Assembly: GCA_021801705.1 (NCBI GenBank)
Contig: JAJYXP010000003.1
Span: 1-41,414, forward strand
Origin: Pseudomonadota bacterium
GTDB lineage: Bacteria > Pseudomonadota > Gammaproteobacteria > Burkholderiales > Sulfuricellaceae
DNA length: 41,414 bases
Reading direction: 5' to 3'
Of this stretch, positions 26,090 through 41,287 are shown one piece after another. A model generated the notes under the pieces. That model was not told the origin of the DNA. It searched no databases and worked only from the letters and a program-made list of their open reading frames with translations. Position numbers and translations under genes: made by a program. Numbering within the stretch: position 1 is the stretch's first letter; each line of letters opens with the position of its first letter.

Positions 26090-26421
26090 GATGTGACCCC
26101 GTAATGTTTGCCTGGAGTTGCTCGGTCGCTACCACGCCAATAGTGCAATGCCTGTCAGCACCAACACACCAAACCTTGCCTCCGCCTGAAATTTAAGCAG
26201 GGGAGTAATTTACAGGGGTCAGTTTTGCGTGGAAATGGCTACTAAAAGTAGGGCGGTTCTGAGTGGCCGTCAACACTCTTGCATCTGCCGCTGGATCACC
26301 GTCCTCGCCAGCCCGCAGTTAACATGATGGTACGATAGTTATCAACCATCCGTATAACCGCTTTTACCCCGCGCCTTTATTGTGTATGGCGGAGCCAGTA
26401 TTTTTATCTCGGCAATAATAT
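26090..26421. other. 332-bp gap between PLD and DUF2339 genes
   Basis: Contains the lplT-like remnant at 26128-26180. The remaining 26181-26421 shows no open frame of note, no strong hairpin and no RNA gene that I recognise. A promoter for the DUF2339 gene would have to lie here. Confidence 0.5.
26128..26180 (-). pseudogene. fragment of the 3' end of an lplT-like transporter gene
   Basis: The minus strand here matches the end of lplT (35438-35490) at roughly 80 percent of positions and still reads FGVLVLTGIALLAW against FGALVLTGIALLAWW in LplT. The next codon is TAG in place of TGG. No upstream part of the gene is present. It indicates that a second lplT-like gene once preceded the DUF2339 gene. 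Confidence 0.65.
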
Positions 26422-27924
26422 TCATAACAATGGCTTGATGGGCAACGTTTGCCAGAACCGTACTTTGTTGCGTTTGGAGATGGGTACGTATTGATCTGGC
26501 TGGTCGGTCGCCGCGTTCCAACTGTTGCCTGGCCGCATATCGGTTTCGATCTTCGCCTCTACAGCGCGCGCCAGACCTTCATTATGGACGATCACTCCCA
26601 CCTCGGTATTGAGATTCTCCGAACGCGGGTCAACATTGAACGTGCCGATATAGACGACCTTCGAATCCACCACCATGGTCTTGGCGTGTAGCGCGAATAC
26701 AGGAGGTTTGTCTTTCATCGTCACGACTTGCTGCATCAACTGGCGCTGCGCCTCGGGATCGGGTTTGTATTCATAAATTTCCAATCCCATCTTGAGCAAG
26801 ATGTCGCGCTGCTTGCGATAGCCACTGAAGGCCTGAAGGTTATCGGTAGAGGCCAGCGAATTGGTATTGATGCGCACGCGCACGCCGCGCGCAGTAGTCT
26901 TCCTGAACAGCGCCATGGCCTTGTCGGAGAGCACCAGATAAGGCGACTGGATAACGATATGATCGCGGGCTCCCTCGACCAATTGCGCCAGAGCTGTCGT
27001 GGTCAATCCGCCGCCACCAAAACTCATCCAGTTCTTATTTTTGCCCGGAAGGTCGCTGATGAATTTTGCGTCACCCCAGACCACCTCTTCAGCCAGACGT
27101 GGAAACGAGGAGGGCGTGGCCTCTATGGCAGCGTGCACCTCGGGCGCAAAGTTATCCGGTGAATTTGCATATTCATGCAACTCGCGATAAATCCGCTTGA
27201 TCTCCTCATCGTCCACGCGCACATTCTTCTGCATCAGCCCGAGGCCATCGTAGAGCGCCTCCACGCTCACGCTCAGCTCGCTGCCCCAGAAGCGATCGAA
27301 ACTCGCTTGCATCGTCTTGACCACCTCTCCCAGCAGTAGCGCATCCCGGTCCCGGAAATTGTATTCATGGTTGTAATCGAAGTACTCATTGGCCATATTG
27401 CGGCCGCCAGTGATGGCCAGCTTGCCGTCAACGATGAAGGTCTTGTCGTGCATGCGCTGGTTCACACCGCGAAAATCTTTGACCACATTCAGCGCCCGCT
27501 TGTGTAACGGCGTGCCGACCGAATGCTGCGGATTGTAGATACGGATATCAATGTTCGGGTGTTTCGCCAGTGCAAGCAGGGATTTGTCCGGTGCATCGAT
27601 GAGCAGATCGTCCACGATAACGCGCACCCGAACACCACGATCCGCGGCGCGTAGCAGCGCCTCCGTGGCCAGGATGCCGATGTTGTCGGTGCTCCAAATG
27701 AAGTATTGCACCTCGATCGAATTCTGGGCATGGTCGGCCAGCCAGGCACGGGCCACCAGCGCCTCCATGCCCGTGTCCAGTACATAAACGCCGCTCTGCC
27801 CCACATGGGAGGCAATCTGCCTATCGACAAAGGCCATAGGCGCATCCAGCGCAGCACGCCCGGACAAGGGGAGCCATACACACAGACTGAACAGTACAGC
27901 AACCAGCAATCGTTTCAACTTCAT
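26422..27924 (-). CDS. exported phospholipase D / cardiolipin synthase-like protein
   Basis: 500 residues, with an N-terminal signal peptide (KLKRLLVAVLFSLCVWLPLS to about Ala25). Two PLD motifs: HDKTFIVDGKLAITGGRN (H159, K161, D166) and HAKTMVVDSKVVYIGTFN (H413, K415, D420), each followed by Asn and a Glu/Asp. Size and spacing resemble ClsC-type cardiolipin synthases, which join phosphatidylglycerol with another phospholipid, but a phospholipase or headgroup-exchange role is equally possible. The signal sequence points to the periplasm. Follows the YiiX-like gene by 10 nt. Confidence 0.85.
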   Translation of the reverse strand: MKLKRLLVAVLFSLCVWLPLSGRAALDAPMAFVDRQIASHVGQSGVYVLDTGMEALVARAWLADHAQNSIEVQYFIWSTDNIGILATEALLRAADRGVRVRVIVDDLLIDAPDKSLLALAKHPNIDIRIYNPQHSVGTPLHKRALNVVKDFRGVNQRMHDKTFIVDGKLAITGGRNMANEYFDYNHEYNFRDRDALLLGEVVKTMQASFDRFWGSELSVSVEALYDGLGLMQKNVRVDDEEIKRIYRELHEYANSPDNFAPEVHAAIEATPSSFPRLAEEVVWGDAKFISDLPGKNKNWMSFGGGGLTTTALAQLVEGARDHIVIQSPYLVLSDKAMALFRKTTARGVRVRINTNSLASTDNLQAFSGYRKQRDILLKMGLEIYEYKPDPEAQRQLMQQVVTMKDKPPVFALHAKTMVVDSKVVYIGTFNVDPRSENLNTEVGVIVHNEGLARAVEAKIETDMRPGNSWNAATDQPDQYVPISKRNKVRFWQTLPIKPLL

Positions 27925-27934
27925 CTATCGCATC

Positions 27935-29473
27935 CTACCGATTTTCGTCAGCCAAGCGTGCTTGCCGCTGCTCATCTTTCAGCCCGACCAGTTTTCGGTA
28001 TAGCGCCACCCCGGCAGCATCGTCTCCTTTCCGGTAGGCCAGCCTGCCGTCGTGGGCAAAAAGTGTGAGCTCAAGAGGATCGGATGGGTTGCCAGCAGCG
28101 CGCTTGGCGATGTCGTCGGGGGAAATGGTAAAACTGGTGAAAACCTGCTTGGTGACAAAATCGACTTGAGGGTAGGCGACGTAGACAAGCTCGGAACAGA
28201 CGATGGTTTCGGTAGTATTCACGTCAAAATTGAAATCATAGCGTTTGCCAAAGTTGCTGAGTGCCAGATCGATCGAATCCCTTATTGAGTCCTGAGTCAA
28301 TCGATACGCTCGCAGTACGGCAATGTCATCGATGTTCATGAAATGTTCCAGGGTATTGAGCACCACGCCGCCGCGCAGGGCTTCCAGCACCACGTGCCCT
28401 GAACGGATCTGTTCCAGGTGTTTTTGGATTAATGGCAAATCAAGAGCGCCGATAGCCCGCAACTGTTCCGTTGTCCCAATATAAATTGCTGCATGGCCGA
28501 AGTGCCCCGGAATGGTCTTATCTGTCAGCGCAAAGGGCGTTTTCTCCAGCAGGATGTCGCCAGGCTGAAGCGTTTCTGACAACATTGCATAAAAATCGCG
28601 GTCGTTTTTGAGTTTCCCATCACGCCAGCGCACCATGCCAAGGGTATTGCCAACAATCTGTGAGGTAAGGAATTTCAACTTGCCCACCTGCTGAACTGAA
28701 TCGACGACAGAGCGTTGCAAGAGAATGCCAAGTTGATCAGTGATCTTCTGGAAGGCGTCATCACCCCCAAATTTCTTGCGCGCCGGGCTGTTCGCCACGA
28801 ATTCATAGAGCGTTCTCAGGCTCTTGTCAGCCTTGCCCATGTGCTGGGCGATCGCTTCCTGGTTGTTTTGAAAGAACCGGATCGCATCAGTCATGGAGGT
28901 GCGATATGTCAGCGAATTGGCTCGAAGCAACGAGTCTTCGTAAAAATTTTTCCCCACGCCTGACTCAGGATAAGCCTCGTTAAGTTTGCTGCGCAGCACA
29001 TGATCGCCGGAGAAATTCTTCTGCATGAATTGTGCATTGTCGAATAAGGTCAGCGCCGCCGACATCGAAATGAGGATGGAGTCGATCCGCTCGTCATCGC
29101 CCAATCGATCATCCACCCGATAGAGCGCATTGCGGTGCAGCAGCGCATACTGAAACAGTGAGGTGCGTATGGCGTTGGCTTCAGTAATTTCCCTGGCGAT
29201 ACGAACAGAAAAAGAAGCGGGCAGCGCGCCCTTGTGCGCTTCGATAGCTTGGCTGGCCTCGTCGACAAAACGTGGGATTTTCTCTTGTAACGCCTTGGAT
29301 CGAGCTATCAGGGCAATGACCTGCTCGGCTTCTGCCTGATGTGTCGCATGGGCATCACGCTCCGGGCTCGCCGTTTTAACGGGCTCATCAGATGAAAACG
29401 CCAACGCGGGAAACATTGTTTCCAGAGCCAGAAAAACCGCAGTCGACAAGACGCGTGAAGTCAGAGTTTTCAT
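27935..29473 (-). CDS. exported YiiX-like permuted papain-fold enzyme
   Basis: 512 residues with signal peptide (MKTLTSRVLSTAVFLALETM...ALAFSS). Residues about 40-290 are a long helical region without recognised family. Residues about 300-450 carry the YiiX/LRAT-like permuted NlpC/P60 pattern: LQPGDILLEKTP (302-313), PGHFGHAAIYIG with His327, and ETIVCSELVYVAY with Cys426. Members act on lipid or peptide amide/ester bonds; E. coli YiiX is only about 200 residues. Start MKTL supported by length of the signal peptide. 43 nt after the cdsA-like gene. Confidence 0.75.
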   Translation of the reverse strand: MKTLTSRVLSTAVFLALETMFPALAFSSDEPVKTASPERDAHATHQAEAEQVIALIARSKALQEKIPRFVDEASQAIEAHKGALPASFSVRIAREITEANAIRTSLFQYALLHRNALYRVDDRLGDDERIDSILISMSAALTLFDNAQFMQKNFSGDHVLRSKLNEAYPESGVGKNFYEDSLLRANSLTYRTSMTDAIRFFQNNQEAIAQHMGKADKSLRTLYEFVANSPARKKFGGDDAFQKITDQLGILLQRSVVDSVQQVGKLKFLTSQIVGNTLGMVRWRDGKLKNDRDFYAMLSETLQPGDILLEKTPFALTDKTIPGHFGHAAIYIGTTEQLRAIGALDLPLIQKHLEQIRSGHVVLEALRGGVVLNTLEHFMNIDDIAVLRAYRLTQDSIRDSIDLALSNFGKRYDFNFDVNTTETIVCSELVYVAYPQVDFVTKQVFTSFTISPDDIAKRAAGNPSDPLELTLFAHDGRLAYRKGDDAAGVALYRKLVGLKDEQRQARLADENR

Positions 29474-29516
29474 TGCATTGCCTCAATATAATGTCAATAG
29501 TTCCCTTGCGTGTATC

Positions 29517-30467
29517 TTACTGCACCCACCAATAACGCACGATATGGAAAAAGATCGGTGCCGAAAAGCAGATGGAATCCACACGGTCGAGCATCCCGCC
29601 GTGGCCTTCGATCATGGAGCCCCAATCCTTGACACCGCGGTCGCGCTTGATGGCTGAAAGCACGAAGCCTCCGAAAAATCCCATGATATTGATGATGAGC
29701 GCAATGAGGCCTGCCTGCCAAGGATTGAAAGGCGTGATCCACCATAGTGTCGCCCCCACCGCAGTCGAAGTCAGCACGCCGCCGATCAGTCCTTCCAGCG
29801 TTTTGGAAGGCGAGATGGCGACGGATATTTTGTGCTTGCCGAGGAGTTTGCCCCACACGTACTGGAAAACATCGCTGGATTGCACGGTCAGGATGAGGAA
29901 AAGGATCAGCAAGACATTGCGTTCGGCGTAGCCCGGGATATCTAGTGTCAGCAGTGCTGGAACGTGTGATAGGCAATACACGCAAATCATCAGGCCCCAT
30001 TGCACTTTGGCGGCACGTTCGAGAAAGCGCGTGGTATCGCTGCCCAAGGAAGCGGAAATTGGCAGCAGCAAAAAGGCATAAACCGGGATGAGGATAGAAA
30101 ACAGGCCATACCAATCGATAACGATCAGGTAGTACTGCAATGGCAGAAAGAAAAAGAAAATCCACAGCAATACGCGATGGTCGCCGCGCCGGGTGTGGGT
30201 GAGCGAAATAAACTCACGCAGGCTCTGGAAGGAGATGAAAGCAAACAGGGCAATGACGCCGCCCTTGCCGATCCAGATCGCCCCGCCAATAAGCAGGATC
30301 ATGGCCCACCAAGCATTGATTCGGGCATTGAGATTGTCAATGACGCTGTGGGAAGCATCAGATGCCAGACGATATTTGAGTACTGCGCCAATCACGCTGG
30401 CAAACACGAGCACAGCAAAAATTCCGCCAAATACGGCGAACAAGGTATCGCTCAGGTCCATGGGCAT
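29517..30467 (-). CDS. ynbB: YnbB-like CDP-diacylglycerol synthase (CdsA family)
   Basis: 316 residues, about eight membrane segments. The CdsA signature is complete near the C-terminus: SAIKRDRGVKDWGSM followed by GHGGMLDRVDS. It would activate phosphatidic acid with CTP to CDP-diacylglycerol, the donor for CDP-alcohol phosphatidyltransferases such as YnbA nearby. It resembles E. coli YnbB more than housekeeping CdsA (SPSKTLEGLIGGV, SSDVFQYVWGK). ATG at 30467, 1 nt after the plsC stop; ATG at 30461 also possible. The longer TTG start overlaps plsC and is disfavoured. Confidence 0.88.
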   Translation of the reverse strand: MPMDLSDTLFAVFGGIFAVLVFASVIGAVLKYRLASDASHSVIDNLNARINAWWAMILLIGGAIWIGKGGVIALFAFISFQSLREFISLTHTRRGDHRVLLWIFFFFLPLQYYLIVIDWYGLFSILIPVYAFLLLPISASLGSDTTRFLERAAKVQWGLMICVYCLSHVPALLTLDIPGYAERNVLLILFLILTVQSSDVFQYVWGKLLGKHKISVAISPSKTLEGLIGGVLTSTAVGATLWWITPFNPWQAGLIALIINIMGFFGGFVLSAIKRDRGVKDWGSMIEGHGGMLDRVDSICFSAPIFFHIVRYWWVQ

Positions 30468-30468
30468 C

Positions 30469-31092
30469 TCATTCAGCAGGCGGCGCAAGGGTCAGTAAGG
30501 ATTCACGGGCACGGATCAGGAAATCGTCCCTGGCTTCGCCGAGGGTCAGGTTCAGAGCCTGCCCGAAAGTTAATGAACAAAGCAGAGGGGCCGGCACGAA
30601 TGTTCCCTTGGGCATCACCCGTCCAAGATTTTCAATCCATACCGGCACCAGTTCGATCTCCGGGTGGGCCTTGGCCAAGTGGTAAATGCCGCTCTTAAAA
30701 GGAAGCAGCGTATCTCCCAGATTGCGTGTACCTTCCGGAAATATGATCAGCGAATCGCCGTCGGCCAGCGCCGCGCCCATCAGTTCGACCGGATTGGCCT
30801 GATGCCGACTGGGCTTGCGACCGATAAGCACACCGCGGAACACCCGGTCGGCGATGTAGCGGCGCAACGCGCTGGCACGCCAATAATCGGCTCCAGCCAC
30901 CGGCCGCGTCCGGCGGCGCAGAGACGGTGGCAGCGAAGCCCAGATGAGCACGAAATCGCCGTGGCTTCGATGATTTGCAAAGTACACCCGCTGCCGCGCA
31001 TCGGGCACACTGCCACGCCACACCGCGCGCACGCCAGTGAGCAGTTTGGCAAAAACGCACAAGGCAGATGCGGCCAGATTTTCCAGTGCCAT
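30469..31092 (-). CDS. PlsC-type 1-acylglycerol-3-phosphate acyltransferase
   Basis: 207 residues. Catalytic NHRSHGDF (H-x4-D, about residues 40-47) and FPEGTR (about 118-123) define the acyltransferase family. Expected to acylate lysophosphatidic acid or another lysophospholipid on the inner membrane. Immediately upstream of the cdsA-like gene, so phosphatidic acid could be passed to it. Such a gene is not part of E. coli ynbABCD. Confidence 0.88.
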   Translation of the reverse strand: MALENLAASALCVFAKLLTGVRAVWRGSVPDARQRVYFANHRSHGDFVLIWASLPPSLRRRTRPVAGADYWRASALRRYIADRVFRGVLIGRKPSRHQANPVELMGAALADGDSLIIFPEGTRNLGDTLLPFKSGIYHLAKAHPEIELVPVWIENLGRVMPKGTFVPAPLLCSLTFGQALNLTLGEARDDFLIRARESLLTLAPPAE

Positions 31093-31105
31093 GGGTTTCC
31101 TCTTT

Positions 31106-31600
31106 CTAGCCTGCGATTGGTAGGCGCATCACCACCAGCACGGCCACCATCGACACAAACTGTATCACGAAGGCCAATATCTGCCGCCTGAGCAATTTCC
31201 CCGCGCCGCGCAGGCGGCCGTCCAGCTCCCGCACCGCTCCGCCCGAAGGCGCACGTAAGCCACAAGCAGCAATGGATTGATCGAGCGCCGCCAAATCTTC
31301 TACCAGTGCAGCCGATGCAAAGCCTTGGGTGGCGGCATCACTCCATGTCTCGGCCCAGTGGCGGAACAGGGCTTCGTCAAACGCCACGCGTAGGGCCAAT
31401 ATTTTTTGCGTGCCGCCAGCCAGGAGGGAAAGCAGCAGGCCGATGGTTGGCGGCAGCAGCAAGGGTATCCACAAGAGCGTGGCCAGGGCAAGCGCGGTCA
31501 GAGCCAGGCTCCACAGGTCGAGACTGCGCCCAAGTGCCAGTGCGGCGGCAATCGCCCGGGCACGGGCCGCTGCTGCGGCGAAGTCGAGGGGCTCAGGCAT
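31106..31600 (-). CDS. small membrane protein of unknown function in the lipid cluster
   Basis: 164 residues from the ATG at 31600, which overlaps the ynbD stop by 8 nt. An Ala-rich amphipathic N-terminus (PLDFAAAAARARAIAAALAL), two adjacent membrane segments (about 26-58), a soluble middle with Trp, Asp and Cys residues, and a last membrane segment near the C-terminus (FVIQFVSMVAVLVVMRL). No known motif. The overlap suggests that it is made together with YnbD and may be a partner subunit. Confidence 0.75.
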   Translation of the reverse strand: MPEPLDFAAAAARARAIAAALALGRSLDLWSLALTALALATLLWIPLLLPPTIGLLLSLLAGGTQKILALRVAFDEALFRHWAETWSDAATQGFASAALVEDLAALDQSIAACGLRAPSGGAVRELDGRLRGAGKLLRRQILAFVIQFVSMVAVLVVMRLPIAG

Positions 31601-32945
31601 GCAATGCTCCCGCTCTAGCAACGTGCGTCAATTCGGCGAGCGCTGCACGATGCGCTGGGCTCAATACCACTTGCGGTCGTTTTTCCCGCAGCATCGCTTC
31701 AGCCGCATCCAGATTTTGGACTCGACCCGTGAGCAACAGCCAGGCAAGTACCGCGCAGGCGCTGCGCGAATAGCCGAGTGCACAGCACACCAGCACCGGG
31801 CCATGGATACGCGATGACTCAATGAGACGCGCAGCCTCTATCAGTTGTGACACATCTGGAGGCACCATATCCAGCCAGGCCAACCCAGTGTAGCGCCAGT
31901 CGCCACGCGGCGCCGGCAGTTCGGCGGTGAAATCGCAGAGAGTGGAAAATCCTCCGCTACGCATCTCCCCTGCACTGGGCAGGCGGCCTAGCCAGACATC
32001 ATCGAGAATGTTGTCCGTCGCCAGGTGGCGGCGCGTCCACCAGCGTGAATTGAGCCACGCCCCCAACACGTAGGGCGCGAGCAGGATAGCAACCGACAAA
32101 CTGTGTCGCCCATCCTGTTTCTGAAAACCTGCCGCGCCGCTACGTGCGTAAATCAGTTCCACCAGGCCTAGCGCAGCAGCACCCCACCACAGCCACAAGG
32201 CCGCACCTCCGATACCCTGCGCAAGACCGGCCAGCACGAACGCGCCAAGCAGGTAATAAGCCGCCACCCGGAAATGCCGCGATGTTGGGACAAAATCCCC
32301 CCCGGCCAAGGGCGATTGACCTCTGTCGGGCCATAGCCACAGGCACAGCAAGCCGACCAGGATGCCCGTCGGAATATCGATGAAATGGTGCTGAAAAGTT
32401 GTCATGACCGATAACCCGATTAGTACGGCCCAAAGGTGTACCAGCATGCGCCAGGGTGCCGACACACTCGAGGCGAAGCGCACCCACAGGATAACCAGCA
32501 GGCTGATATGCAAGGACGGGGCCTGATTATAAGGCTGGTCGAACCCCATCAGGGCATCGAACATGGCACCGAACAAGCCATCGACGTGCGGGCGCTCGAA
32601 GGCGTAATGCAGGGGGAAAGCCAGGAAGAACGAAACGGAAACCAGTTGTGCGGTCAGCAGGCGCAAGGCATGGCGATCCACCTGCATGCGGCTGCGGCAA
32701 AGCAGGAAAGAAAGGCCGTAGAGCAGGTCGATGGACCAGTAGGGGAGAATGGTCCATGGCAGAAAGGGGATGTTGCGCTCCCAGTCGAAAAACACCGCAT
32801 CGGTAACCGCTTTTTCAGCAGCCAGGTGATTGCTGAAACCATAACTGAGGAAGAAAAAGGGGCCGAGAAACAGCAGCCAGGCGATGCTGCGCCCCCACAG
32901 AGGGAATCCCACCTCGATAGCGGAAGCGGGCGCCTGCTGCTTCAT
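31593..32945 (-). CDS. ynbD: YnbD-like PAP2 / dual-specificity phosphatase fusion
   Basis: 450 residues. Residues about 15-210 are a PAP2-type membrane phosphatase or transferase with PSLHISLL (143-150) and HHFIDIPTG (H186, D190), like inositol-phosphotransferase relatives. A further membrane region (225-300) leads to a cytoplasmic cysteine phosphatase with DNILDDVWLGRLPS (311-324) and CALGYSRS (C388-x5-R394). The fusion is diagnostic of E. coli YnbD. It could strip phosphate from a lipid headgroup intermediate. Start at 32945 shares one base with the ynbC stop (TGATG). Confidence 0.88.
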   Translation of the reverse strand: MKQQAPASAIEVGFPLWGRSIAWLLFLGPFFFLSYGFSNHLAAEKAVTDAVFFDWERNIPFLPWTILPYWSIDLLYGLSFLLCRSRMQVDRHALRLLTAQLVSVSFFLAFPLHYAFERPHVDGLFGAMFDALMGFDQPYNQAPSLHISLLVILWVRFASSVSAPWRMLVHLWAVLIGLSVMTTFQHHFIDIPTGILVGLLCLWLWPDRGQSPLAGGDFVPTSRHFRVAAYYLLGAFVLAGLAQGIGGAALWLWWGAAALGLVELIYARSGAAGFQKQDGRHSLSVAILLAPYVLGAWLNSRWWTRRHLATDNILDDVWLGRLPSAGEMRSGGFSTLCDFTAELPAPRGDWRYTGLAWLDMVPPDVSQLIEAARLIESSRIHGPVLVCCALGYSRSACAVLAWLLLTGRVQNLDAAEAMLREKRPQVVLSPAHRAALAELTHVARAGALHA

Positions 32946-34699
32946 CAGGCGACCCGGCGTGCCAGGGAGACCGTAAAAATCCCCCATTCGTCGATACGCT
33001 GCTCGATTTTTTCGAAGCCTGCTTCTTCAACCAACTGATCCATTTCCGCCTGAGTACGACGGCGCATCACCCAGGCTTGCCCGCCACGGTGGCTGGTCAG
33101 GGCGCGTGCGATCAACTCCAGTTGCGGGTGCCATGGCTGGCCGGTATATAGCAGATATCCACCGGGTTCGATGGCATCCGCCATGCCGGCCAGAGAACGA
33201 CGTACCCTATCGTTGTCGGGAAACAACTCGTAAAGGCCGGAAACAATGCCCAGCGTTGGCCGGGGCCGTACTGCAGCTATCGATGCTCTATCAAAGGCGT
33301 CCCCCTTCTCGAAGCGCGCAATATCTTGCAAGCCCTTTTCTTGAATCAGCGCAGCACCGTCGCGCACATTGATATCGCTGTAATCGCGCAGCAGAATGGA
33401 TTCCGGAAGTTGTGTGCAGCCATTCAATGCTTCCAGCACGTAACGGCCATGGCCGGCCGCAATGTCCAGCAGGCGCACCGGATGGCACTCACCGCGCAAA
33501 ATGTTCATGGCTTTACGCAGCAACTCTTCAAGGTGCAGCTTGCGCTGACGGATGCCACGCCACCCGATGGATTGAAGGTACTGGTGATCGATCAGCCGCC
33601 CCAGTGGGCCAATACCTGCCGGGGTGTTGCGATAGACGTAGTCAAGCGTACTGCCGGAATCGAAACCGGTCTGGTGGCCAAGGCTCACGCCCTCGGAGAG
33701 CAAGCCGCCGATTTTCATGTTAAGCTTTGCCAGCACCCAATACAGCCCACGCGGACTTAAGGCAGGCAGCGGTTTTGAGAGAGAGACTGACTCTTCGAAA
33801 GTGGCGCCGTGGCGATCCGCCTGCCGCAAATCCACGCGCTGTGGCGCTTCTTCGAAGCGGCGCACGATGAAATCCCGCACCTTGTCCACTACCGGCTTGC
33901 GATTGGCCTCGCCCAAGGTGTCGTGAAAGAAGCCGTCGAGTACGCGCTTTTCTTTCACCGTCGTTCCCAGCCGCTCGAAAAAATCATGCTGGGGGCCGTG
34001 GTGCACTACCCAGTCTGCGCCCGAAATAAGTAGTTGGGTCGGAATAGTGATCGCTTGGGCATCGGCCACAACGCGTTCGGCAGTCTCATAGAGGGCAAGC
34101 AGGATGTTCACCGAGATGGCGCGGGCGATCAGCGGGTCGGCATCAAAAGACTTTTGGCGCACGGGGTCGTGAGTCAGGAATTTTGACTTTACGTAACTAT
34201 TAACGAAGAAGTTGCCCCGCAGGGCCTGCATCAAACGTAATCCCGTCCGTGCAAATGGGACATAGAGTTTGACCTTGAAGGCGGGCGACGCAAGCACCAG
34301 ACAGCGGATCTTCGGTGCGTAGTCGTGCGCCCAGGTGGCAATCAGCACTGCGCCGACGCTTTGTGCCAGCACCGCCATGTCAGCATGGGTAATACCATAG
34401 GTATGGTGGATATGGTCGATGAAGGTTTGCACATCACGCACCGAGGTAGCCAAGCTCGGCGAGTAACCGCGCTCGCCAGGTGAACGGCCATGGCCGCGTG
34501 CATCCCAGGCGAAGAAATCGAAATCCGGCAAATTCAGTTCATCCACCAAGTGTGCGATGCGTCCGGAATGCTCGTGCCCACGGTGAAACATCACCACGCA
34601 GCCGCGCCGTGGCGCTTTACTCGGCCAATGGTGGTAAAACAACTGGACACCATCATGGGTTGCGAAAGTACACTCACTCGCCTGACGTATTTCGGTCAT
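32945..34699 (-). CDS. ynbC: YnbC-like alpha/beta hydrolase fused to SAM methyltransferase
   Basis: 584 residues. Residues 1-285: alpha/beta hydrolase of the monoacylglycerol-lipase type, oxyanion region HRGHEHSGR, nucleophile elbow AQSVG (Ser114), probable Asp229 (SGADW) and His259 (FFHD). Residues about 310-584: class I methyltransferase with motif I LLDIAAGHGRY (410-420) and a post-motif ending GGYLLYTGQPWHPQ. The same two-domain layout and length as E. coli YnbC (585). Likely a lipid deacylase coupled with methylation of an unidentified lipid or headgroup; both substrates are unknown. Confidence 0.88.
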   Translation of the reverse strand: MTEIRQASECTFATHDGVQLFYHHWPSKAPRRGCVVMFHRGHEHSGRIAHLVDELNLPDFDFFAWDARGHGRSPGERGYSPSLATSVRDVQTFIDHIHHTYGITHADMAVLAQSVGAVLIATWAHDYAPKIRCLVLASPAFKVKLYVPFARTGLRLMQALRGNFFVNSYVKSKFLTHDPVRQKSFDADPLIARAISVNILLALYETAERVVADAQAITIPTQLLISGADWVVHHGPQHDFFERLGTTVKEKRVLDGFFHDTLGEANRKPVVDKVRDFIVRRFEEAPQRVDLRQADRHGATFEESVSLSKPLPALSPRGLYWVLAKLNMKIGGLLSEGVSLGHQTGFDSGSTLDYVYRNTPAGIGPLGRLIDHQYLQSIGWRGIRQRKLHLEELLRKAMNILRGECHPVRLLDIAAGHGRYVLEALNGCTQLPESILLRDYSDINVRDGAALIQEKGLQDIARFEKGDAFDRASIAAVRPRPTLGIVSGLYELFPDNDRVRRSLAGMADAIEPGGYLLYTGQPWHPQLELIARALTSHRGGQAWVMRRRTQAEMDQLVEEAGFEKIEQRIDEWGIFTVSLARRVA

Positions 34700-34711
34700 G
34701 GTAAAAGCCTT

Positions 34712-35329
34712 TCAGTTACTCGGAAGATGAATGGAAGCCACGCCCCCACGAATACGGTTGAAGATATTCACAACAATGGCGAGAACAATGGCCGGCATGA
34801 TCCAGAACGCCCAGTCCGGCAAGCCGGGTGTTAGCCCGACCCATAGGCCAAGCGCCCCGAATACGAAGGCCCGGTCGCTCTTTCCCATGGGTCCGTCGTA
34901 GCGGCGTTCTGCACCGATCATCGGTCCCAGCGCACCAGCCATTTCCGATACCGCCGAAAAAAAAACCACTGCCCCAACGCTAGACCAGCCAAAAGGCGTA
35001 ATAGTCACAAATGGCAGATACAAGGCAGCATCTGAAATTACGTCGGACAACTCGTTCAGATAAGCGCCAAGAGCAGACTTCTGTCCGAATTCACGCGCCA
35101 GCATACCGTCTATAGCATTGAAGGCCATGCGCAGGAACATCCACAACGGAAGCAGAAAAAATAGAGCGCGCTGCCCACCCGCAGCGCCTAGCATGGCACC
35201 CAGCGCTAGAGATATAAGCATCGCAGTCAACGTTACGCTGTTAGCGGTGATTCCCGCTCCGGCACAATAGCGGGCTACAGGCCTTAGGAGGGATTGAAAA
35301 CGGGGTTTGAGTTGGTAAATGCTGACCAT
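34712..35329 (-). CDS. ynbA: YnbA-like CDP-alcohol phosphatidyltransferase
   Basis: 205 residues with about six membrane segments. The CDP-alcohol motif is present as N71-x2-D74-G-x2-A-R79-x8-G88-x3-N92-x3-D96. The first and third metal-binding aspartates of the canonical D-x2-D-G-x2-A-R-x8-G-x3-D-x3-D pattern are Asn. I recall the same Asn residues in E. coli YnbA, so this looks like a subfamily trait and may mean altered metal use or acceptor. It should join a CDP-activated lipid to an alcohol. Preceded by 55 AT-rich nt after lplT. Confidence 0.88.
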   Translation of the reverse strand: MVSIYQLKPRFQSLLRPVARYCAGAGITANSVTLTAMLISLALGAMLGAAGGQRALFFLLPLWMFLRMAFNAIDGMLAREFGQKSALGAYLNELSDVISDAALYLPFVTITPFGWSSVGAVVFFSAVSEMAGALGPMIGAERRYDGPMGKSDRAFVFGALGLWVGLTPGLPDWAFWIMPAIVLAIVVNIFNRIRGGVASIHLPSN

Positions 35330-35384
35330 GCGTTATCCATGAGCATATTGCATATGTTTATGCGATTTGTATTTTCCCACAGCT

Positions 35385-36617
35385 TCAGCGGTTCGCCTCT
35401 TCAATCAACCGGGCAGTAGCATTCGCCTTGCTCACCCGCCACCACGCCAATAGCGCAATACCAGTCAATACCAACGCGCCAAACCCTGTCGCCGTCGCGA
35501 CCACCGAGACACCGGCCTTGTTCATCAGCACGTAAAACCCCACCATCAGCAGCATACTCAGGTTCTCGAAGAAATTCTGCACCGCAATGGCGTGCCCCGC
35601 CCCCACCGATTCGTGGCCACGTTCCTGCAACATCGCATTGAGCGGCACCACGTAAAAGCCACCGCAGGCGCCGATCAGCACCAGCATGACGACGGCAGTT
35701 GGCATGGAAGTGACCTGGGCAAACACCATGATCAGCAAACCGATGGCAATGCCGGCGGGCAGCGCGCGGTTGACGCTGTTGAGCGTAACCAGCCTGGCTG
35801 CCGCCGCCGCGCCAAAGGCGATGCCGATGGCGACGACGCCGCTCAGGTTGGCCGGGACATGGTTGTTTTCGATCAGCAAGGCCACCGGCACCCATGCCAC
35901 CAGCAGGAAACGCAGGGTGCTGCCGCTCCCCCAGAAGACGCTGGTGCCAAACAGGGAGAAGCGTGCATCGCGGTTGCGCAGCAATATGCGCATAGCAATA
36001 CCGAAATCCTTCACCAGAGCAACTGGGGAGAGTCGTTGCACCGGATGAGCGGCGGGCAGGCGCGGAATCAGCAGGTTGGAAAGCGCAGCCAATAGGTAGC
36101 AGGCGACGATTGCTGTCAGCGCTCCTTGCACCGACCAATCCGCAAGCAAGCCGCCCATTACCGCGCCCAGCAGGATGGCAACGATGGTCGAGCCTTCCAT
36201 CAGGCTATTGGCTTTGACCAGCTTGTCCGGCCCCACCAGCTCGCTGAGGATGCCGTACTTCGCCGGCGAATAGGCCGCTGCGCCCACGCCGACGAGGTTG
36301 TAGGCCAACAGCGGGTGCACGCCAGACAGCATGGCAGTGGCACCCAGCAGCTTCATGCCATTGGCGAACAGCATGGCGCGACCTTTGGGGATGGCGTCCG
36401 CGAACGGTCCGACAAAAGGTGCCAGCAGGATGAAGGCGACGACAAAAGCCTCCTGCAACAGAGGCATTTGCCATTCCGGTGCATGCTGCGACTTCAGCAG
36501 CGCAATGGCGGCAAACAGCAGCGCGTTATCCGCCAGCGCGGAAAGAAATTGTGCCGCCAGCACCGAGACCATACCGTGCGAGAACAAGTTGCCGTTCTGG
36601 ATGTTGGGGGAGCTCAT
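35385..36617 (-). CDS. lplT: lysophospholipid transporter LplT (MFS)
   Basis: 410 residues, 12 membrane segments. It begins near FLSALADNALLFAAIALLK and contains AAYSPAKYGILSELV, both typical of LplT. LplT flips lysophosphatidylethanolamine and related lysolipids inward across the inner membrane for re-acylation by Aas; aas-lplT are adjacent in enterobacteria. Here one amidohydrolase gene lies between them, overlapping lplT by 4 nt. The ATG at 36617 is chosen; the upstream frame is a shadow. A broken relative of its 3' end lies at 26128-26180. Confidence 0.9.
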   Translation of the reverse strand: MSSPNIQNGNLFSHGMVSVLAAQFLSALADNALLFAAIALLKSQHAPEWQMPLLQEAFVVAFILLAPFVGPFADAIPKGRAMLFANGMKLLGATAMLSGVHPLLAYNLVGVGAAAYSPAKYGILSELVGPDKLVKANSLMEGSTIVAILLGAVMGGLLADWSVQGALTAIVACYLLAALSNLLIPRLPAAHPVQRLSPVALVKDFGIAMRILLRNRDARFSLFGTSVFWGSGSTLRFLLVAWVPVALLIENNHVPANLSGVVAIGIAFGAAAAARLVTLNSVNRALPAGIAIGLLIMVFAQVTSMPTAVVMLVLIGACGGFYVVPLNAMLQERGHESVGAGHAIAVQNFFENLSMLLMVGFYVLMNKAGVSVVATATGFGALVLTGIALLAWWRVSKANATARLIEEANR

Positions 36618-37849
36618 GCTGATTTCTTTTCGAAAAAGCGGCGTGTCTCGAATACGCTGGACGGGAATTGATGTTGGCCAAAACGCAGCAAACGTTTCAG
36701 TCCAAAATCGAACAACAGCGGATTGTGCGCCCTGATCTCCTGCAACAGCGGCACTGCGGCTGGGTCGAGCAATTCCATGTTCGCCATGTCGGTAGCCGAG
36801 AACAAGGGCATGACGCCGGGCAAGGGATAATCGGAACCATTGAGCAGGCGCGGATGCCAGTCGGCGCGTTGCAGCACGGCCTTGAGCGCCCACGCCCGGT
36901 TGAACTGGGTTAGCGCGGATATATCGGCATGGAGCTTGCCGGTGTAACGCGGCTCGTCCATCAGGCGGGAAAAAAGCTCGTAGCTCTTCACGCGCGGGCC
37001 GTTCGCGCCTTGGTCAATGTCCTGGTCGTCGCCGTCCGAGGCGCAGTGGGCGACGACCACCCGCACACCGTGATCCATCGCCCGCCGCAGACGCAAGGGA
37101 TTGCCGAAATCCTGGTTGCCGCCCTGCACCGCGAGTTCGCGTCCGGCATGGCTGATGATGGGCATATCCACCGCTGCCAGTGCTTCGTAGAAACGGTCGC
37201 AGCGCGGCGAGAGCGGGTCTATGCCCATCGCCGACGGCAGCCATTTGACGGCACGCGCGCCATCGCGCATGGCCGCCTGCAAGGCGTCCACGCAGTCGGC
37301 GCGATAGGGGTGTATGGAAGCCACCCACTCGAAGGCGTCAGGATGATTATGCGCCACCTCTGCCACGTAACGGTCGGGGATGTGGAAAATGGAGCGGTTG
37401 CGGTCAGGCTGACCGTTTTCGTTATGGAACCAGTCGAAGGCTAACAGCATCGCCTTGAAGCCTGGCCTCATGCCCTCCACGAGGTTGAGCATACGGGCAA
37501 CATAGCTCTGGTCGAGTTGGCACGGCGCCTCATGCACGCAGCCCGCGTTCATGTAGAACAATTTCTGCAATCGCAGCAGGGGATGCCACAGGCTGTCCAT
37601 GGCCGGGCTGAACCATGCCCCATTATTGGAGTCGCCCCCACCCACCAAGTGCACATGGCAATCCCACACTTGCGCCGGGTCCAGTCCCGCCCATACCGAC
37701 TGCATCAGTGGGTGGTGCGCAACGGTCTCTGGCAGGCTGGCCAAGCAGGGATTGGTCAAGCCCTGTTCCGGCCAGTATTTCCAGCCGCCCACGCCGCCGC
37801 CGGCTAGGCCGAATACACCCAGGGATCGCAGAAATTGGCGACGGTTCAT
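36614..37849 (-). CDS. Tat-exported amidohydrolase (metal-dependent hydrolase)
   Basis: 411 residues. A Tat-type signal (NRRQFLRSLGVFGLAGGG; RRQFL motif) is followed by an amidohydrolase-2 TIM barrel with metal ligands DCHVHL (H65, H67), VKWLP (K202), SHAG (H234), VAHCAS (H268) and NGSDYP (D340). Such enzymes hydrolyse or decarboxylate small cyclic or amide substrates. It overlaps both aas and lplT by 4 nt, so it is produced with them; a periplasmic role on a lipid-derived product is a reasonable guess only. Confidence 0.85.
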   Translation of the reverse strand: MNRRQFLRSLGVFGLAGGGVGGWKYWPEQGLTNPCLASLPETVAHHPLMQSVWAGLDPAQVWDCHVHLVGGGDSNNGAWFSPAMDSLWHPLLRLQKLFYMNAGCVHEAPCQLDQSYVARMLNLVEGMRPGFKAMLLAFDWFHNENGQPDRNRSIFHIPDRYVAEVAHNHPDAFEWVASIHPYRADCVDALQAAMRDGARAVKWLPSAMGIDPLSPRCDRFYEALAAVDMPIISHAGRELAVQGGNQDFGNPLRLRRAMDHGVRVVVAHCASDGDDQDIDQGANGPRVKSYELFSRLMDEPRYTGKLHADISALTQFNRAWALKAVLQRADWHPRLLNGSDYPLPGVMPLFSATDMANMELLDPAAVPLLQEIRAHNPLLFDFGLKRLLRFGQHQFPSSVFETRRFFEKKSA

Positions 37850-39969
37850 TTGGCGGCTTCCGCCATCTGTTTCAACGTGACGTAATCGGTCTTGCCGGTA
37901 CCCAGCAACGGCAGTTCGGCCACCGGCACGATCTTGCGGGCTACGGCCAGTTCAGGGCTGCCAACTTCCCGTGCGGCGGTTAGTAGTGCTTCGCGGCTAA
38001 GAGTGCCGTCGGTGGTGAACAGCAGGATGTTTTCGCCGCGCTGCGGGTCGGTTTGCGTGGTGGCAGCGTGCTGACAGGTAGGCGATGCGAGGTTGGCGAT
38101 CTGTTCCACCACTTCCAGCGACACCATTTCACCGGCAATCTTGGCGAAGCGTTTGACGCGGCCCAGGATGCGCACGAAACCATCGGCATCGATCTCGACC
38201 ACGTCGCCGGTGCTGTACCAGCCATCCAGTGGCGGCTTTAGCACAGCGGGGTTATCAAATAGGTAATAGCCCTGCATCACGTTGGGGCCACGCACACTCA
38301 GCAGGCCTCCCTGAGCGATGCCGGGCACGGTTTCCAGCTTGAATTCCAGGCCGGGCAGCAGCGGCCCGACGGTGCCGGCGAGACAGGCCATGGGCGTATT
38401 CACGGATAGCACCGGCGCACATTCGGTGGCGCCATAGCCTTCCAGGATGCGGATGCCGAATTTCTCCATCCAGGTCTTGCGTACTTCTTCGTTGAGTTTT
38501 TCCGCGCCGGCCACAACGTAGCGCAGCTTGTAGAAGTCGTAAGGGTGAGCGAACCGGGCATAGTTGCCGAGAAATGTGCTGGTACCGAACAGAACGGTAC
38601 AGCCACGGTCGTAAATAATCTCGGGGATAATGCGATAGTGTAAAGGGGATGGGTAAAGGAACATTTTTGAGCCCGTCACCAACGGCATGATGCCGCCACA
38701 GGTGAAACCAAAGGCGTGAAACAGTGGCAGCGTGACCATGAATTTGTCGGAAGGCGAGAAATCGACTACCGCTCTAATCTGCGCGATATTGGCCAAGATT
38801 CCGCGGTGCGAATGCACTACGCCTTTTGGTTTGCCTTCTGAGCCCGAGGTGAACAGAACCACGGCAGGGTCATCCGCACGGCCATGCTGCACGGCCAGAG
38901 CGGGCATCCAGCGTGCAAAGCCCATCAGCCAGAGCTTGTCCCATAGACCGAACTGCGCGCGCAGGTCTTCCAGATAGACCACCCGAACATTTTGCAGATT
39001 GGCCAGGGTGCTCTCCAGCTTTGCGGCCTCAATGAACTTGCGCGATGTGAGGATGGTGCGCAGGCCGGCTGCGATGCAGGCATTCTGTATCCCTGCGGTG
39101 CCTGCCGTGTAGTTAAGCATGGCGGGTACACGACGCGTGGCGCTCATGCCAAATATCAGGCAGATAGTATTGGTGACGTTGGGCATCAGCACACCAACAT
39201 TTTCTCTTGGTGCACTAATTTTGCTGGCCAGCCGCCCCAGCGCCAGGCTTTTTTTCAGCAACTGGCCGTAGCTTTCTTCCACTTGCTGCATGTCTTCCAG
39301 TAGACGCGTACCACGTCCATGAATCTTGATGGCGTCAAGGAAGGCGCTGAACATCGTTTGTACCGGCTGCGACGCGAACAGCATTTCCTGCATCACTCGG
39401 CGCATCGCCTCACCCGCCATGCGGCGGCGCAGTTTAGCGCTGGGCTCGTCCGGCATGGGGATGGACGTGGTGGGTAGGAAAGAGAGGGTGATCTTGGGGA
39501 AAATACTGCGCGGATGGTTGCCGGACAAGCGGCTAAAGTAGGAGCGCGCTGCGCCGTCCAGCCGCACTGGAAGGATGGTAGCACCGGTCTTGGCGGCGAC
39601 GAACCCCGGGCCATCGTATACCTTCATAAGGCTGCCGGTCAAGGTAATGCGTCCTTCCGGGAAGATCACCACCGGCTCACCTGCCTCCAACAACTTGATG
39701 ACTTTTTTCATCGCCAGCGGGCTGGTTGGATCCACTGCCAGATGCGGCACGCGGGAAAGCAGGAAACGGAAAATGGGATTGTCGAGTACTGTGGTATGCA
39801 CCAAAAATGTCGCCCGAAACGGCAGGAACAGACCTATTAGTAGGCCGTCCAGAAACGACTCGTGGTTGGCAATGACTAGCAGTTTGCCGGTTTCAGGCAG
39901 GTTGATGTTGCCGTGAATCTCAACCCGGAATAGCATTCTGCAAAGCAGGCGTAGCAGCGTTTTCAACAT
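37846..39969 (-). CDS. aas: bifunctional acyltransferase / acyl-ACP synthetase Aas
   Basis: 707 residues; E. coli Aas is 719. N-terminal acyltransferase with NHESFLDG (H36-x4-D41) and FPEGRI (103-108). C-terminal adenylate-forming domain from about 225 with FTSGSEGKPKG (373-383), YGATECAP, YSTGDVVEIDADGF, and GTGKTDY with the catalytic Lys693. It activates fatty acids onto ACP and re-acylates lysophosphatidylethanolamine at the inner membrane. First enzyme gene after the ArsR-type regulator (20 nt gap). Confidence 0.93.
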   Translation of the reverse strand: MLKTLLRLLCRMLFRVEIHGNINLPETGKLLVIANHESFLDGLLIGLFLPFRATFLVHTTVLDNPIFRFLLSRVPHLAVDPTSPLAMKKVIKLLEAGEPVVIFPEGRITLTGSLMKVYDGPGFVAAKTGATILPVRLDGAARSYFSRLSGNHPRSIFPKITLSFLPTTSIPMPDEPSAKLRRRMAGEAMRRVMQEMLFASQPVQTMFSAFLDAIKIHGRGTRLLEDMQQVEESYGQLLKKSLALGRLASKISAPRENVGVLMPNVTNTICLIFGMSATRRVPAMLNYTAGTAGIQNACIAAGLRTILTSRKFIEAAKLESTLANLQNVRVVYLEDLRAQFGLWDKLWLMGFARWMPALAVQHGRADDPAVVLFTSGSEGKPKGVVHSHRGILANIAQIRAVVDFSPSDKFMVTLPLFHAFGFTCGGIMPLVTGSKMFLYPSPLHYRIIPEIIYDRGCTVLFGTSTFLGNYARFAHPYDFYKLRYVVAGAEKLNEEVRKTWMEKFGIRILEGYGATECAPVLSVNTPMACLAGTVGPLLPGLEFKLETVPGIAQGGLLSVRGPNVMQGYYLFDNPAVLKPPLDGWYSTGDVVEIDADGFVRILGRVKRFAKIAGEMVSLEVVEQIANLASPTCQHAATTQTDPQRGENILLFTTDGTLSREALLTAAREVGSPELAVARKIVPVAELPLLGTGKTDYVTLKQMAEAAK

Positions 39970-39989
39970 GGCCCCCTTTTTGTTGCTCT

Positions 39990-40301
39990 TTAAGTGTTAT
40001 TCCTGACGTAATCCAGCACGCGCTGCAAAGTTTCGGCGATGTTTTCCTTATCGATCCAGAAATACACTTCCTTGCCGATTTTTTTGCTTTGCAGAACCCC
40101 AGCTTGACGCAGTATCTTGAGATGATACGACACTGCCGTGCGGCTCAATGTGGAGGCTGCAACGATTTGCGTGACGTTGAGCCGCTCTCCGGGCTCGAAC
40201 GTCAGCAGGATACGTTGACGCTGTTCGTCCCCCAAGGCGACGAACATGCCTGAAACATCGCGCCACTCGTCTGGTAGTGTATGAATGAGATCGGTTAACA
40301 T
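39990..40301 (-). CDS. ArsR-family winged-helix regulator of the lipid cluster
   Basis: 103 residues from the ATG at 40301: DEQRQRILLTFEPGERLNVTQIV, the recognition helix STLSRTAVSYHLKILRQAG, and the wing KKIGKEVYFWID. No CxC metal motif of ArsR/SmtB type in helix alpha-3 is present and there are no cysteines at all, so metal sensing by thiols is unlikely. It leads the aas-lplT-ynb run and is the obvious candidate regulator. The N-terminal extension of the open frame is not supported. Confidence 0.85.
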   Translation of the reverse strand: MLTDLIHTLPDEWRDVSGMFVALGDEQRQRILLTFEPGERLNVTQIVAASTLSRTAVSYHLKILRQAGVLQSKKIGKEVYFWIDKENIAETLQRVLDYVRNNT

Positions 40302-40529
40302 AGCTACAGGTTTACACTTATGATTATGTATGTCAACAACTGTTTTTATACTCAGTACTGCTGACGAGCTGTGCGGTGGGTGTATGCCGCAGAGAGGCAC
40401 TTCTAGCGCCTTACGTTTGAGGTAGCTTCCAAATGGAATCTGCGGCGGTTTAAGGGAGATACGAGGTGCATGAAGGATTTGGCCGGCTAGCGACAGCCCA
40501 TCCAGGCAGCCGCTTGTTGGCTTAATCGT
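40302..40529. other. gap between the integrase remnant and the regulator
   Basis: Holds the candidate regulator promoter (40309-40336). The rest shows no open frame, tRNA or att-like direct repeat that I can support. Confidence 0.4.
40309..40336 (-). promoter_or_regulatory. candidate promoter/operator of the ArsR-type gene
   Basis: Minus strand TTGACA (40336-40331), 16 nt, TAAACC (40314-40309). TTGACA and TGTAAA form an imperfect inverted repeat that could be an ArsR-type operator overlapping the promoter. The predicted start is very close to the ATG at 40301. No strong ribosome site is seen. Confidence 0.35.
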
Positions 40530-41154: not shown

Positions 41155-41219
41155 GATGAACTCCTTCGAATTGTGAAAGGAGCTTCATTTATAGGAGTTT
41201 CAGTGGCCGCTGTCTGCTG

Positions 41220-41287
41220 TATTCTGTTGAAAAACTCTAATTTTCCAAAGTCCCGAATTTCTGCCTAGAACTAATCTGCTTGGAAAT
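41220..41287. mobile_element. second, inverted copy of the IS end
   Basis: 41220-41268 is identical to the reverse complement of 24190-24238 (49 bp, including the 19-bp terminal repeat). 41271-41287 matches the reverse complement of 24129-24145. The 44-nt hairpin present in the other copy is missing. Similarity stops abruptly at 41288. Confidence 0.75.

Follow-up and report, generated by a model that had tools for sequence, protein, structure and literature searches.

Gene organization of the locus

The window (the whole stretch of 41,414 nucleotides that was analysed) holds a row of 12 consecutive genes that runs on the minus strand from 40301 to 26422 in the order arsR-aas-amidohydrolase-lplT-ynbA-ynbC-ynbD-orf171-plsC-ynbB-C92-PLD. 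The listing of open reading frames (ORFs), Pfam and NCBIfam bear out an earlier note on this DNA, which had placed 12 minus-strand genes with small gaps or overlaps behind a single arsR. With two starts corrected by reading frame (lplT to 36617 and ynbB to 30461), the intergenic spacing ranges from -8 to +55 bp, and the genes contain 0 internal stop codons. The gene families are, by Pfam and NCBIfam, as first read, and the twelfth gene, which had been left unnamed, encodes a helical protein of 164 residues (orf171). Judged by gene content and order, the locus is a composite of three predicted parts: (i) arsR-aas-Tat amidohydrolase-lplT, (ii) ynbA-ynbC-ynbD-orf171-plsC-ynbB, here termed the ynb core, and (iii) a C92-PLD tail. 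Terminator-like sites within 26000-41414 number 23 compared to 16.5 (sd 4.0) in shuffles, somewhat more than expected. An anti-phage system was considered and rejected: a PADLOC scan of nine row proteins gave nothing specific, with no match for YnbA, YnbB, YnbC, YnbD, orf171, C92 or the amidohydrolase, and the matches of ArsR to Csa3 (E 1e-12) and of the PLD protein to DrmC (E 2e-17) are read as shared domains.

The regulator and its upstream region

The first gene encodes an ArsR-type regulator of 103 residues (39990..40301, minus strand), a member of the ArsR helix-turn-helix family by PF01022 and NF033788 (59.8 bits, cut-off 55), both above cut-off. Relatives of this protein are 53-86% identical, and the paralogues of its own genome reach at most 41%. 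The cysteine metal site is missing, with 0 Cys in the window protein; among 23 relatives read (2 further matches were unreadable), 19 have 0 Cys and 4 have 1.

A promoter-like element (40299..40336, minus strand) precedes arsR, with a TTGACA that sits 35 bp 5' of the ATG and occurs once across the window. TTGAC is found 33-38 bp before the assigned arsR start in 19 of 26 upstream regions, the window included. The element is absent from the matches of a sigma-70 scan of 26000-41414, which returned 6 promoter-like sites versus a mean of 8.2 in shuffles. A palindromic operator was rejected, as inverted repeats at p<0.05 (letter shuffles) are present in 8 of the 26 upstream regions, overlapping the start codon in some relatives, and the window is not among these 8. 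The palindrome of the window's own upstream region is not significant by the same shuffles and, thus, the promoter-like element alone is claimed. A broken-looking integrase lies just upstream of the row.

The aas-amidohydrolase-lplT module

The aas gene (37846..39969, minus strand) encodes an acyl-ACP synthetase/lysophospholipid acyltransferase of 707 residues (NF005959, 971 bits, cut-off 886), and lplT (35385..36617, minus strand) encodes a lysophospholipid transporter (NF008397, 527 bits, cut-off 297). Both pass the NCBIfam equivalog cut-offs and have one gene between them, which assigns the pair to the LplT-Aas system. As described in the consulted part of PMC11416262, lysophospholipids of E. 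coli are re-acylated and transported by this pair. The intervening gene (36614..37849, minus strand) encodes an amidohydrolase (PF04909) of 411 residues with an N-terminus, MNRRQFLRS, that by eye resembles a Tat signal. A sequence search for solved-structure relatives of this protein found none, and its putative metal-site residues are kept in 43-45 of 45 sequences.

The arsR-aas-Tat amidohydrolase-lplT set is a predicted operon that recurs in the taxonomic order. This was read from 45 amidohydrolase loci, including 5 from a search of relatives (L115-L119) and 40 from an order sample (L125-L164), to which G349 contributes two; the order sample listed 43 amidohydrolase places, of which the window itself and two already included were not recounted. 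In 18 of the 45 (2 of them cut or partial), aas immediately precedes the amidohydrolase, and the lplT downstream of these is close (at least 59% identity) in 10, distant (26-29%, one 30%) in 7 and cut by the contig end in 1. A different arrangement, with arsR directly before the amidohydrolase and an acyltransferase-type match downstream, is seen in 7 loci, 6 of which also have a distant transporter, while 2 have acyltransferase-type matches downstream without arsR. Another 18, some on short pieces, have no upstream aas, arsR or acyltransferase-type arrangement. Outside the 45, L124 (G007) carries arsR-aas-lplT without the amidohydrolase. The aas of the window is 90% identical to that of G299 and 87% to that of G048, which belong to other families, compared to 82% for G001 and 61% for G007 of the same genus; thus, the aas part appears to move too.

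The ynb core

The ynb core is, by its gene order elsewhere, a separate and independent predicted unit. The ynbC gene was located by short patterns in 326 loci, of which the best 80 were read with flanks of at most 10 kb per side (26 of the 80 are shorter than 21 kb). The five recognisable enzymes follow one another as ynbA-ynbC-ynbD-plsC-ynbB on one strand in 71 of these 80; of the other 9, L032 has a different order, and 8, all on short or cut contigs, are without some members. The longest ORF in the ynbD-plsC gap lies in another frame in L028, L044, L047, L062, L067 and L075, where orf171 is uncounted. A second CdsA-family gene (C70, taken as the housekeeping CdsA) and two CDP-alcohol phosphotransferases with the canonical signature are encoded outside the locus and, thus, the ynb core is extra.

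The earlier note had proposed a neighbourhood test for the combination of ynb with aas-lplT, and this went against conservation: the amidohydrolase, lplT and C92 are found in 0 of the best 80 of 326 ynbC loci within the flanks read. Weak distant matches lie about 9 kb from ynbC, to aas in L049 (29% over 0.4) and to PLD in L056 and L058 (25-27%). The complete 12-gene set was seen in this genome only, and ynb was next to aas-lplT in no other locus among these 80 and the 45 amidohydrolase loci. Of the genomes sampled from the same genus (11) and elsewhere in the same family (10), some of them incomplete, none yielded ynbC; the 6 genomes scored with ynbC include G028, whose 28% match covers the hydrolase part only. 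The idea that the ynb core has conserved neighbours was rejected by clustering 834 flanking ORFs: Rhodocyclales-type loci are missing from all of the ten largest families, and only one of the listed families covers both locus groups, with 5 loci at differing distances or 4 in one case. An ArsR relative at 57% identity directly precedes ynbA in L007, while the arsR match of L034 spans 43 residues only.

YnbA (34712..35329, minus strand; arc1A-like) belongs to the CDP-alcohol phosphotransferase family by Pfam (PF01066, 30 bits, cut-off 22) and departs from the signature DxxDGxxAR(x8)GxxxDxxxD, the positions of D1 and D3 being occupied by N71 and N92. The substitution is near-invariant, with Asn at D1 in 82 of 83 YnbA sequences and likewise at D3 in 82 of 83, and E. 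coli YnbA is the same. The YnbA signature is new here in that two of the four putative metal-site aspartates are asparagine. With Asn at two predicted metal ligands YnbA may not be a standard phosphotransferase, and its departure from the family signature makes even the reaction class uncertain. The unusual phospholipid of the earlier note is possible as a product.

Of the remaining core proteins, YnbC (32945..34699, minus strand) is an alpha/beta hydrolase-methyltransferase fusion (PF12146, PF12147) and YnbD (31593..32945, minus strand) a fusion of a PAP2-type domain, for which the models score below cut-off, to a dual-specificity phosphatase (DSP; PF00782, above cut-off). The orf171 protein (31106..31600, minus strand; core gene 4) is without a Pfam family, and it is followed by a PlsC-type acyltransferase (30469..31092, minus strand; PF01553) and by YnbB (29517..30461, minus strand; PF01148), a CDP-DAG synthase paralogue. 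Putative catalytic residues are kept in PlsC, YnbC, YnbB, YnbD and the Tat amidohydrolase, including S114, D229 and H259 of YnbC (85 of 85 sequences), HX4D of PlsC (77 of 77), and PSLH, QHHFxD and CALGxxRS of YnbD (invariant, n=25 aligned). The DSP half of the YnbD structure model (pLDDT 90) resembles DUSPs and PTPMT1; among the PDB matches listed, all are to this half and none to the PAP2 half. The orf171 model (pLDDT 94) has no PDB match at E<=0.001, and R71, D75, D107 and R129 are invariant (n=30 aligned).

The C92-PLD tail and a possible exchangeable slot

The tail encodes a C92 protein (27935..29473, minus strand; PF05708, YiiX/YaeF-type permuted papain-like, 512 residues) and a PLD-family protein (26422..27924, minus strand; PF13091, PF00614) with two HKD motifs by eye, both with signal-like N-termini. 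C92 is found in 9 of 399 genomes of the order at E<=1e-30, its own included, with matches that span only about 40% of the protein in G025 and G338; two other genomes, of one genus, have C92 near the ynb core. The PLD protein is closest to the cardiolipin synthases and scores below their cut-off (TIGR04265, E 2.9e-31, 109 bits versus 290).

A member of the family, G014, has the same frame (L115), with arsR at 83%, aas at 90% (split in two frames), amidohydrolase at 85%, lplT at 75%, C92 at 76% and PLD at 85% identity. Between lplT and C92-PLD, where the window has the ynb core, G014 holds another cassette of a small C92, PlsC, PAP2_3 and a PPDK-like protein. The locus thus resembles a slot into which different lipid cassettes can be exchanged. 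The PPDK-like protein is also found in G001, at 77%, which is therefore placed outside the 399-genome sample.

Proposed function

The row is best read, at a probability of about 0.5, as an inducible response to phospholipid damage that is built from exchangeable modules. Release of the ArsR repressor would switch on the row, and LplT and Aas would retrieve and re-acylate lysophospholipids that arise when phospholipases attack or the envelope is damaged. The ynb core, which is similar to Pseudomonas arc1A-F, would build a special phospholipid along a pathway that parallels phosphatidylglycerol (PG) synthesis, in which PlsC forms phosphatidic acid (PA), YnbB converts it to CDP-DAG, YnbA hands the phosphatidyl group on to an acceptor, a phosphate is taken off by the DSP half of YnbD and YnbC methylates or hydrolyses. 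Such a lipid may render membranes less easily damaged or more easily repaired, and the exported PLD and C92 proteins may trim or transfer head groups outside. Against this reading stand the finding of the 12-gene set in this genome only, the Gac/Rsm control of arc1 in P. aeruginosa and the auxiliary look of arc1A and aas there, the non-significant palindrome before arsR, the outcome of the sigma-70 scan with its slight excess of terminator-like sites, and the Asn pair of YnbA. A more specific form is offered tentatively, in which an ArsR-controlled modular membrane-repair island combines a constant lysophospholipid-rescue part (Aas, LplT and a new Tat-exported amidohydrolase) with a swappable cassette (arc1/ynb or PlsC-PAP2_3-PPDK-like), and YnbA represents a distinct Asn-altered class of CDP-alcohol phosphotransferase that makes an undescribed phospholipid.

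A possible alternative, less probable than the damage response, is that the parts came to lie together by chance: two modules that spread horizontally and a tail would share a promoter and have unrelated functions. The finding of the combination in this genome only, the lack of a ynbC match in the 21 related genomes sampled, the closeness of aas to that of other families and the broken-looking integrase are consistent with this reading. By contrast, the slot in G014 and G001 holds a cassette that likewise includes PlsC and PAP2_3, L007 has an arsR of that subfamily before ynbA, and C92 recurs near a ynb core in two other genomes, all of which argue for more than chance.

The full cycle of the earlier note, in which a ynb phospholipid is cleaved by exported enzymes and its lysolipid recycled by LplT-Aas, matches the gene content and is, nevertheless, improbable. 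Phospholipase D yields phosphatidic acid, not the lysolipid imported by LplT, and the window PLD resembles cardiolipin synthases. C92 is not known to be a phospholipase A, and aas-lplT is apart from ynb in the other loci examined. That the ynb core makes a glycolipid (MPIase-type) precursor, with YnbB as a CdsA paralogue, seems quite improbable: MPIase increases when E. coli YnbB is overproduced and YnbB does not substitute for CdsA, while a ynbB knockout does not change MPIase significantly (both from the consulted part of PMC6362211), and YnbA, YnbC, YnbD and orf171 would be left without a role. Bacterial phosphatidylinositol synthesis, with YnbA as a phosphatidylinositol-phosphate (PIP) synthase and YnbD as a PIP phosphatase, was rejected as a leading idea and is very improbable, for although YnbA is matched best in NCBIfam and the PDB by PIP synthases and archaetidylinositol-phosphate synthases (well short of the equivalog cut-off) and PTPMT1 is one of several DUSPs matched by the DSP half of YnbD, two YnbA metal ligands are changed and inositol-1-phosphate synthase (PF07994) was not found in the genome (98.75% complete), a control search finding it in 5 of 14 genomes.

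The joining of the core to a pair for lysolipid repair points to phospholipase damage as the place to seek the chemistry of arc1/ynb. The Asn pair of YnbA and the conserved orf171 can be tested directly, and exchange of the cassette yields a second, unrelated gene set that likely serves a similar need.

Comparison with known systems

PA2541-PA2536 of P. aeruginosa is presumably arc1A-F, antagonism resistance cluster 1, and a literature search for the products of PA2536-PA2541 found none. The arc1A-F cluster has six genes, including five lipid genes of which four are like PG-synthesis enzymes, according to the consulted part of PMC8926400. The ynb core may match this cluster, the likeness being drawn from gene count and lipid composition (taken from the description) and from start residues. 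Other Pseudomonas loci have the A-C-D-orf-plsC-B order of the window. The published deletion primer for PA2541 implies the start MIS, with which YnbA begins in 2 of 9 Pseudomonas loci, and the PA2536 primer implies MNE, with which YnbB begins in 0 of 9. In P. aeruginosa, arc1A and aas both contribute to lipase-effector resistance and, thus, the linking of lysolipid re-acylation to the ynb set in the earlier note is reasonable provided that the core is arc1, whereas the other loci examined lack the join. In a strain without arc1A, arc3A and aas, sensitivity to V. cholerae does not exceed that of the arc3A mutant and, thus, arc1A and aas look auxiliary (both from the consulted part of PMC12663445); Ting et al. 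did not trace the arc1 defect to any single B. thailandensis effector. In the consulted parts of the arc1/ynb literature, P. aeruginosa shows a defence phenotype and E. coli a marginal effect on MPIase, and no product is named.

The ynbABCD genes of E. coli K-12 encode proteins of 38-57% identity (YnbA 45%, YnbC 57%, YnbD 38% and YnbB 39%) with the same N/N signature in YnbA; by contrast, the order is A-B-C-D, and plsC, orf171, a regulator and aas-lplT are absent within the 16 kb shown. Mycobacterial PIP synthase PgsA1, a class I CDP-alcohol phosphotransferase, shares family and signature spacing with YnbA, in which D1 and D3 are instead Asn. The G014/G001 operon has the regulator and repair genes in common with the window, as well as the C92-PLD tail in G014, and differs in its lipid cassette. 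The LplT-Aas repair system is represented by equivalogs of both proteins, here, unlike the known system, with an ArsR of its own and the Tat-like amidohydrolase. While Arc1 of P. aeruginosa is controlled by Gac/Rsm and lies apart from aas (PA3267), the core of the window stands behind an ArsR and next to aas-lplT, and this joining of an arc1-like core to LplT-Aas is new here.

Organization and regulation of the gene row

The gene row is real and tightly packed; it combines two modules that recur elsewhere with a tail that is rare. Twelve minus-strand genes extend from arsR (40301) to the phospholipase-D-family (PLD) gene (26422), exactly where an earlier note had placed them, in the order arsR, aas, amidohydrolase (Tat-like signal), lplT, ynbA, ynbC, ynbD, orf171 (31106-31600), plsC, ynbB, C92 (encoding a YiiX/YaeF-type permuted papain-like protein) and PLD. 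With starts corrected, neighbouring genes overlap by at most 8 bp or are spaced by at most 55 bp. More than 300 bp downstream of PLD, a same-strand DUF2339 gene closes the row; it is left out of the twelve. About 0.2 kb upstream of arsR lie the C-terminal half of a tyrosine recombinase (PF00589) and, in another frame, a possible N-terminal part with no Pfam match (40530-40973 and 40894-41154, minus strand); the gene appears to be disrupted by a frame break, a hint of past mobility. Elsewhere in the window, a PmbA/TldD-type ORF (16786-19320, minus strand) has about 430 residues ahead of its first TldD domain.

The ArsR of the window contains no cysteine, which sets it apart from classical thiolate metal sensors; its own-genome paralogues share at most 41% identity. 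In 19 of 26 arsR upstream regions, that of the window among them, TTGAC is found 33-38 bp ahead of the assigned start, a spacing that would allow a leaderless transcript, and this promoter-like element is present in the window as a single copy. Several of these regions have an inverted repeat across the start codon, significant by shuffling in 8/26, the window's own not among them. A generic sigma-70 scan did not list the arsR element, and 23 terminator-like sites were found vs. 16.5 expected; thus, it is from gene spacing that we infer a single transcript for the twelve-gene row, which is known from one genome.

The ynb core

A pattern scan of the species-genome collection identified 326 ynbC relatives, the best 80 of which were kept as loci and searched with every window gene. 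The order ynbA-ynbC-ynbD-plsC-ynbB, on one strand, is common to 71 of these 80; the exceptions are one locus of different order (L032) and eight on short or cut contigs without some members. The twelve-gene set is not conserved in full: lplT, amidohydrolase and C92 occur in none of the best 80 ynbC loci, with weak partial matches about 9 kb off to aas (one locus) and PLD (two). The ynbD gene is followed by plsC in 73/80 loci, with a gap of more than 300 bp in 71 of the 73 (in L032, one of the 71, the gap contains ynbB). Relatives of orf171 fill this gap in 29 loci picked for spread, with R71, D75, D107 and R129 invariant among these and the window; thus, orf171 belongs regularly to the core, as an uncharacterised gene. 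A 57% ArsR relative lies directly ahead of ynbA in one ynbC locus (L007), which independently connects this type of regulator to the ynb core; another ArsR match (L034) is partial.

YnbA scores above the CDP-OH_P_transf cut-off; in NCBIfam and PDB it matches archaetidylinositol-phosphate and PIP synthases best, but below the equivalog cut-off. According to PMC6506517, all four Asp of the CDP-AP signature are ligands of the two metals. D1 and D3 of YnbA are each Asn in 82 of 83 sequences, E. coli YnbA likewise; the other two CDP-APs of this genome have the canonical signature. Since the other core enzymes keep their expected catalytic residues, the Asn pair seems to reflect a specific variation and not decay.

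The arsR-aas-amidohydrolase-lplT unit

The upstream part of the row is a second unit, independent of the ynb core. Among 100 relatives (own genome included), aas is found in 33, amidohydrolase in 10, ynbC in 6 (one a weak partial match) and C92 in 4; ynbC was not found in 11 genomes of the same genus, nor in 10 others of the family (completeness 74 to 100%). A wider survey detects the amidohydrolase in 42/399 order genomes. In 18 of 45 amidohydrolase loci aas is directly upstream, and in 10 of those 18 a close lplT (at least 59%) is directly downstream. Thus, the operon arsR-aas-amidohydrolase-lplT recurs, which makes the amidohydrolase a new companion of LplT-Aas, the repair pair. It is not tied to this pair, as 18/45 loci show no aas, arsR, lplT/transporter or acyltransferase-type neighbours. 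Its putative metal-site residues, assigned by reading, are conserved in 43 to 45 of the 45. A variant operon with arsR directly ahead of the amidohydrolase occurs in seven loci (L142, L152, L155-L158 and L163), all with an acyltransferase-type match without full-length Aas and, apart from L157 where none was detected, a distant LplT-like transporter downstream.

A probable exchangeable slot and a rare tail

A same-family genome (G014) matches the window in arsR (83%), aas (90%), amidohydrolase (85%) and lplT (75%). In place of ynb genes come next a small C92, a PlsC-type acyltransferase, a PAP2_3 protein and a PPDK_N/PEP-utiliser protein of 834 aa, after which the row closes as the window's does, with C92 (76%) and PLD (85%). 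Thus, the ynb core sits exactly in the slot of another lipid cassette, and the match of both flanks renders misassembly of the window less likely. The aas of G014 is in two frames (L115 14563-16679), while neighbouring genes appear intact. The PPDK-like protein is detected at E 1e-120 in 1/399 order genomes, namely G014. The same-genus genome G001 has arsR-aas-amidohydrolase-lplT, a 545-aa protein, and then the G014-type set of small C92, PlsC, PAP2_3 and PPDK-like proteins; the C92-PLD tail was not found within the stretch read. The 545-aa protein has a signal-like N-terminus (L117 6343-7980, minus strand); the ORF on its reverse strand has no Pfam match. PlsC and a PAP2-type domain are common to both cassettes (the YnbD PAP2 models being below cut-off), which supports, short of proof, related roles.

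C92 is rare (9/399 order genomes, own included). In two of the other eight, both from one genus, C92 and a ynb core are close together on opposite strands, and the match spans no more than about 40% of the protein. In L120 and L182, loci of two genomes of one genus with C92 near the ynb core, the core is ordered A-B-plsC-C; in L120, D is next and a PAS-GGDEF gene separates C92 from the core.

Proposed function and relation to known systems

A phospholipid-damage response is the best-supported account of the row. LplT-Aas would restore diacyl lipids, as established for E. coli (PMC11416262), while the ynb core would supply a protective or replacement lipid. Judged by family, PlsC, YnbB, YnbA and the phosphatase half of YnbD may form a route that mirrors PG synthesis, with the hydrolase and methyltransferase of YnbC and the PAP2 half of YnbD finishing or transferring the head group. 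The full cycle of the earlier note, in which an unusual phospholipid is synthesized, cleaved outside and its lysolipid recycled, is less likely, as PLD does not yield lysolipids and the parts occur separately in other loci examined.

Of the E. coli proteins, YnbB is ascribed a marginal MPIase role in PMC6362211. Literature searches, judged mostly from listings, found no paper on a product of E. coli ynbA-D, nor any that links arc1 or ynb with aas-lplT in one locus. By our identification, the ynb core may correspond to antagonism resistance cluster 1 of P. aeruginosa (arc1A-F, PA2541-36), which fits in how many genes it has, in what they encode and in their order as seen in other Pseudomonas loci. 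Of nine Pseudomonas YnbA, two share the MIS start of PA2541, and of nine Pseudomonas YnbB, none has the MNE start of PA2536. Five of the six arc1 genes are lipid-related and four resemble PG-synthesis enzymes (PMC8926400). The same source describes expression that is very low at the basal level and raised through Gac/Rsm, a need for arc1A-F against B. thailandensis attack with dispensability in general stress tests, and aas genes adjoining arc3 genes in many bacteria. In a later screen (PMC12663445), arc1A, arc3A and aas proved important for withstanding lipase effectors, arc1A and aas in an auxiliary role.
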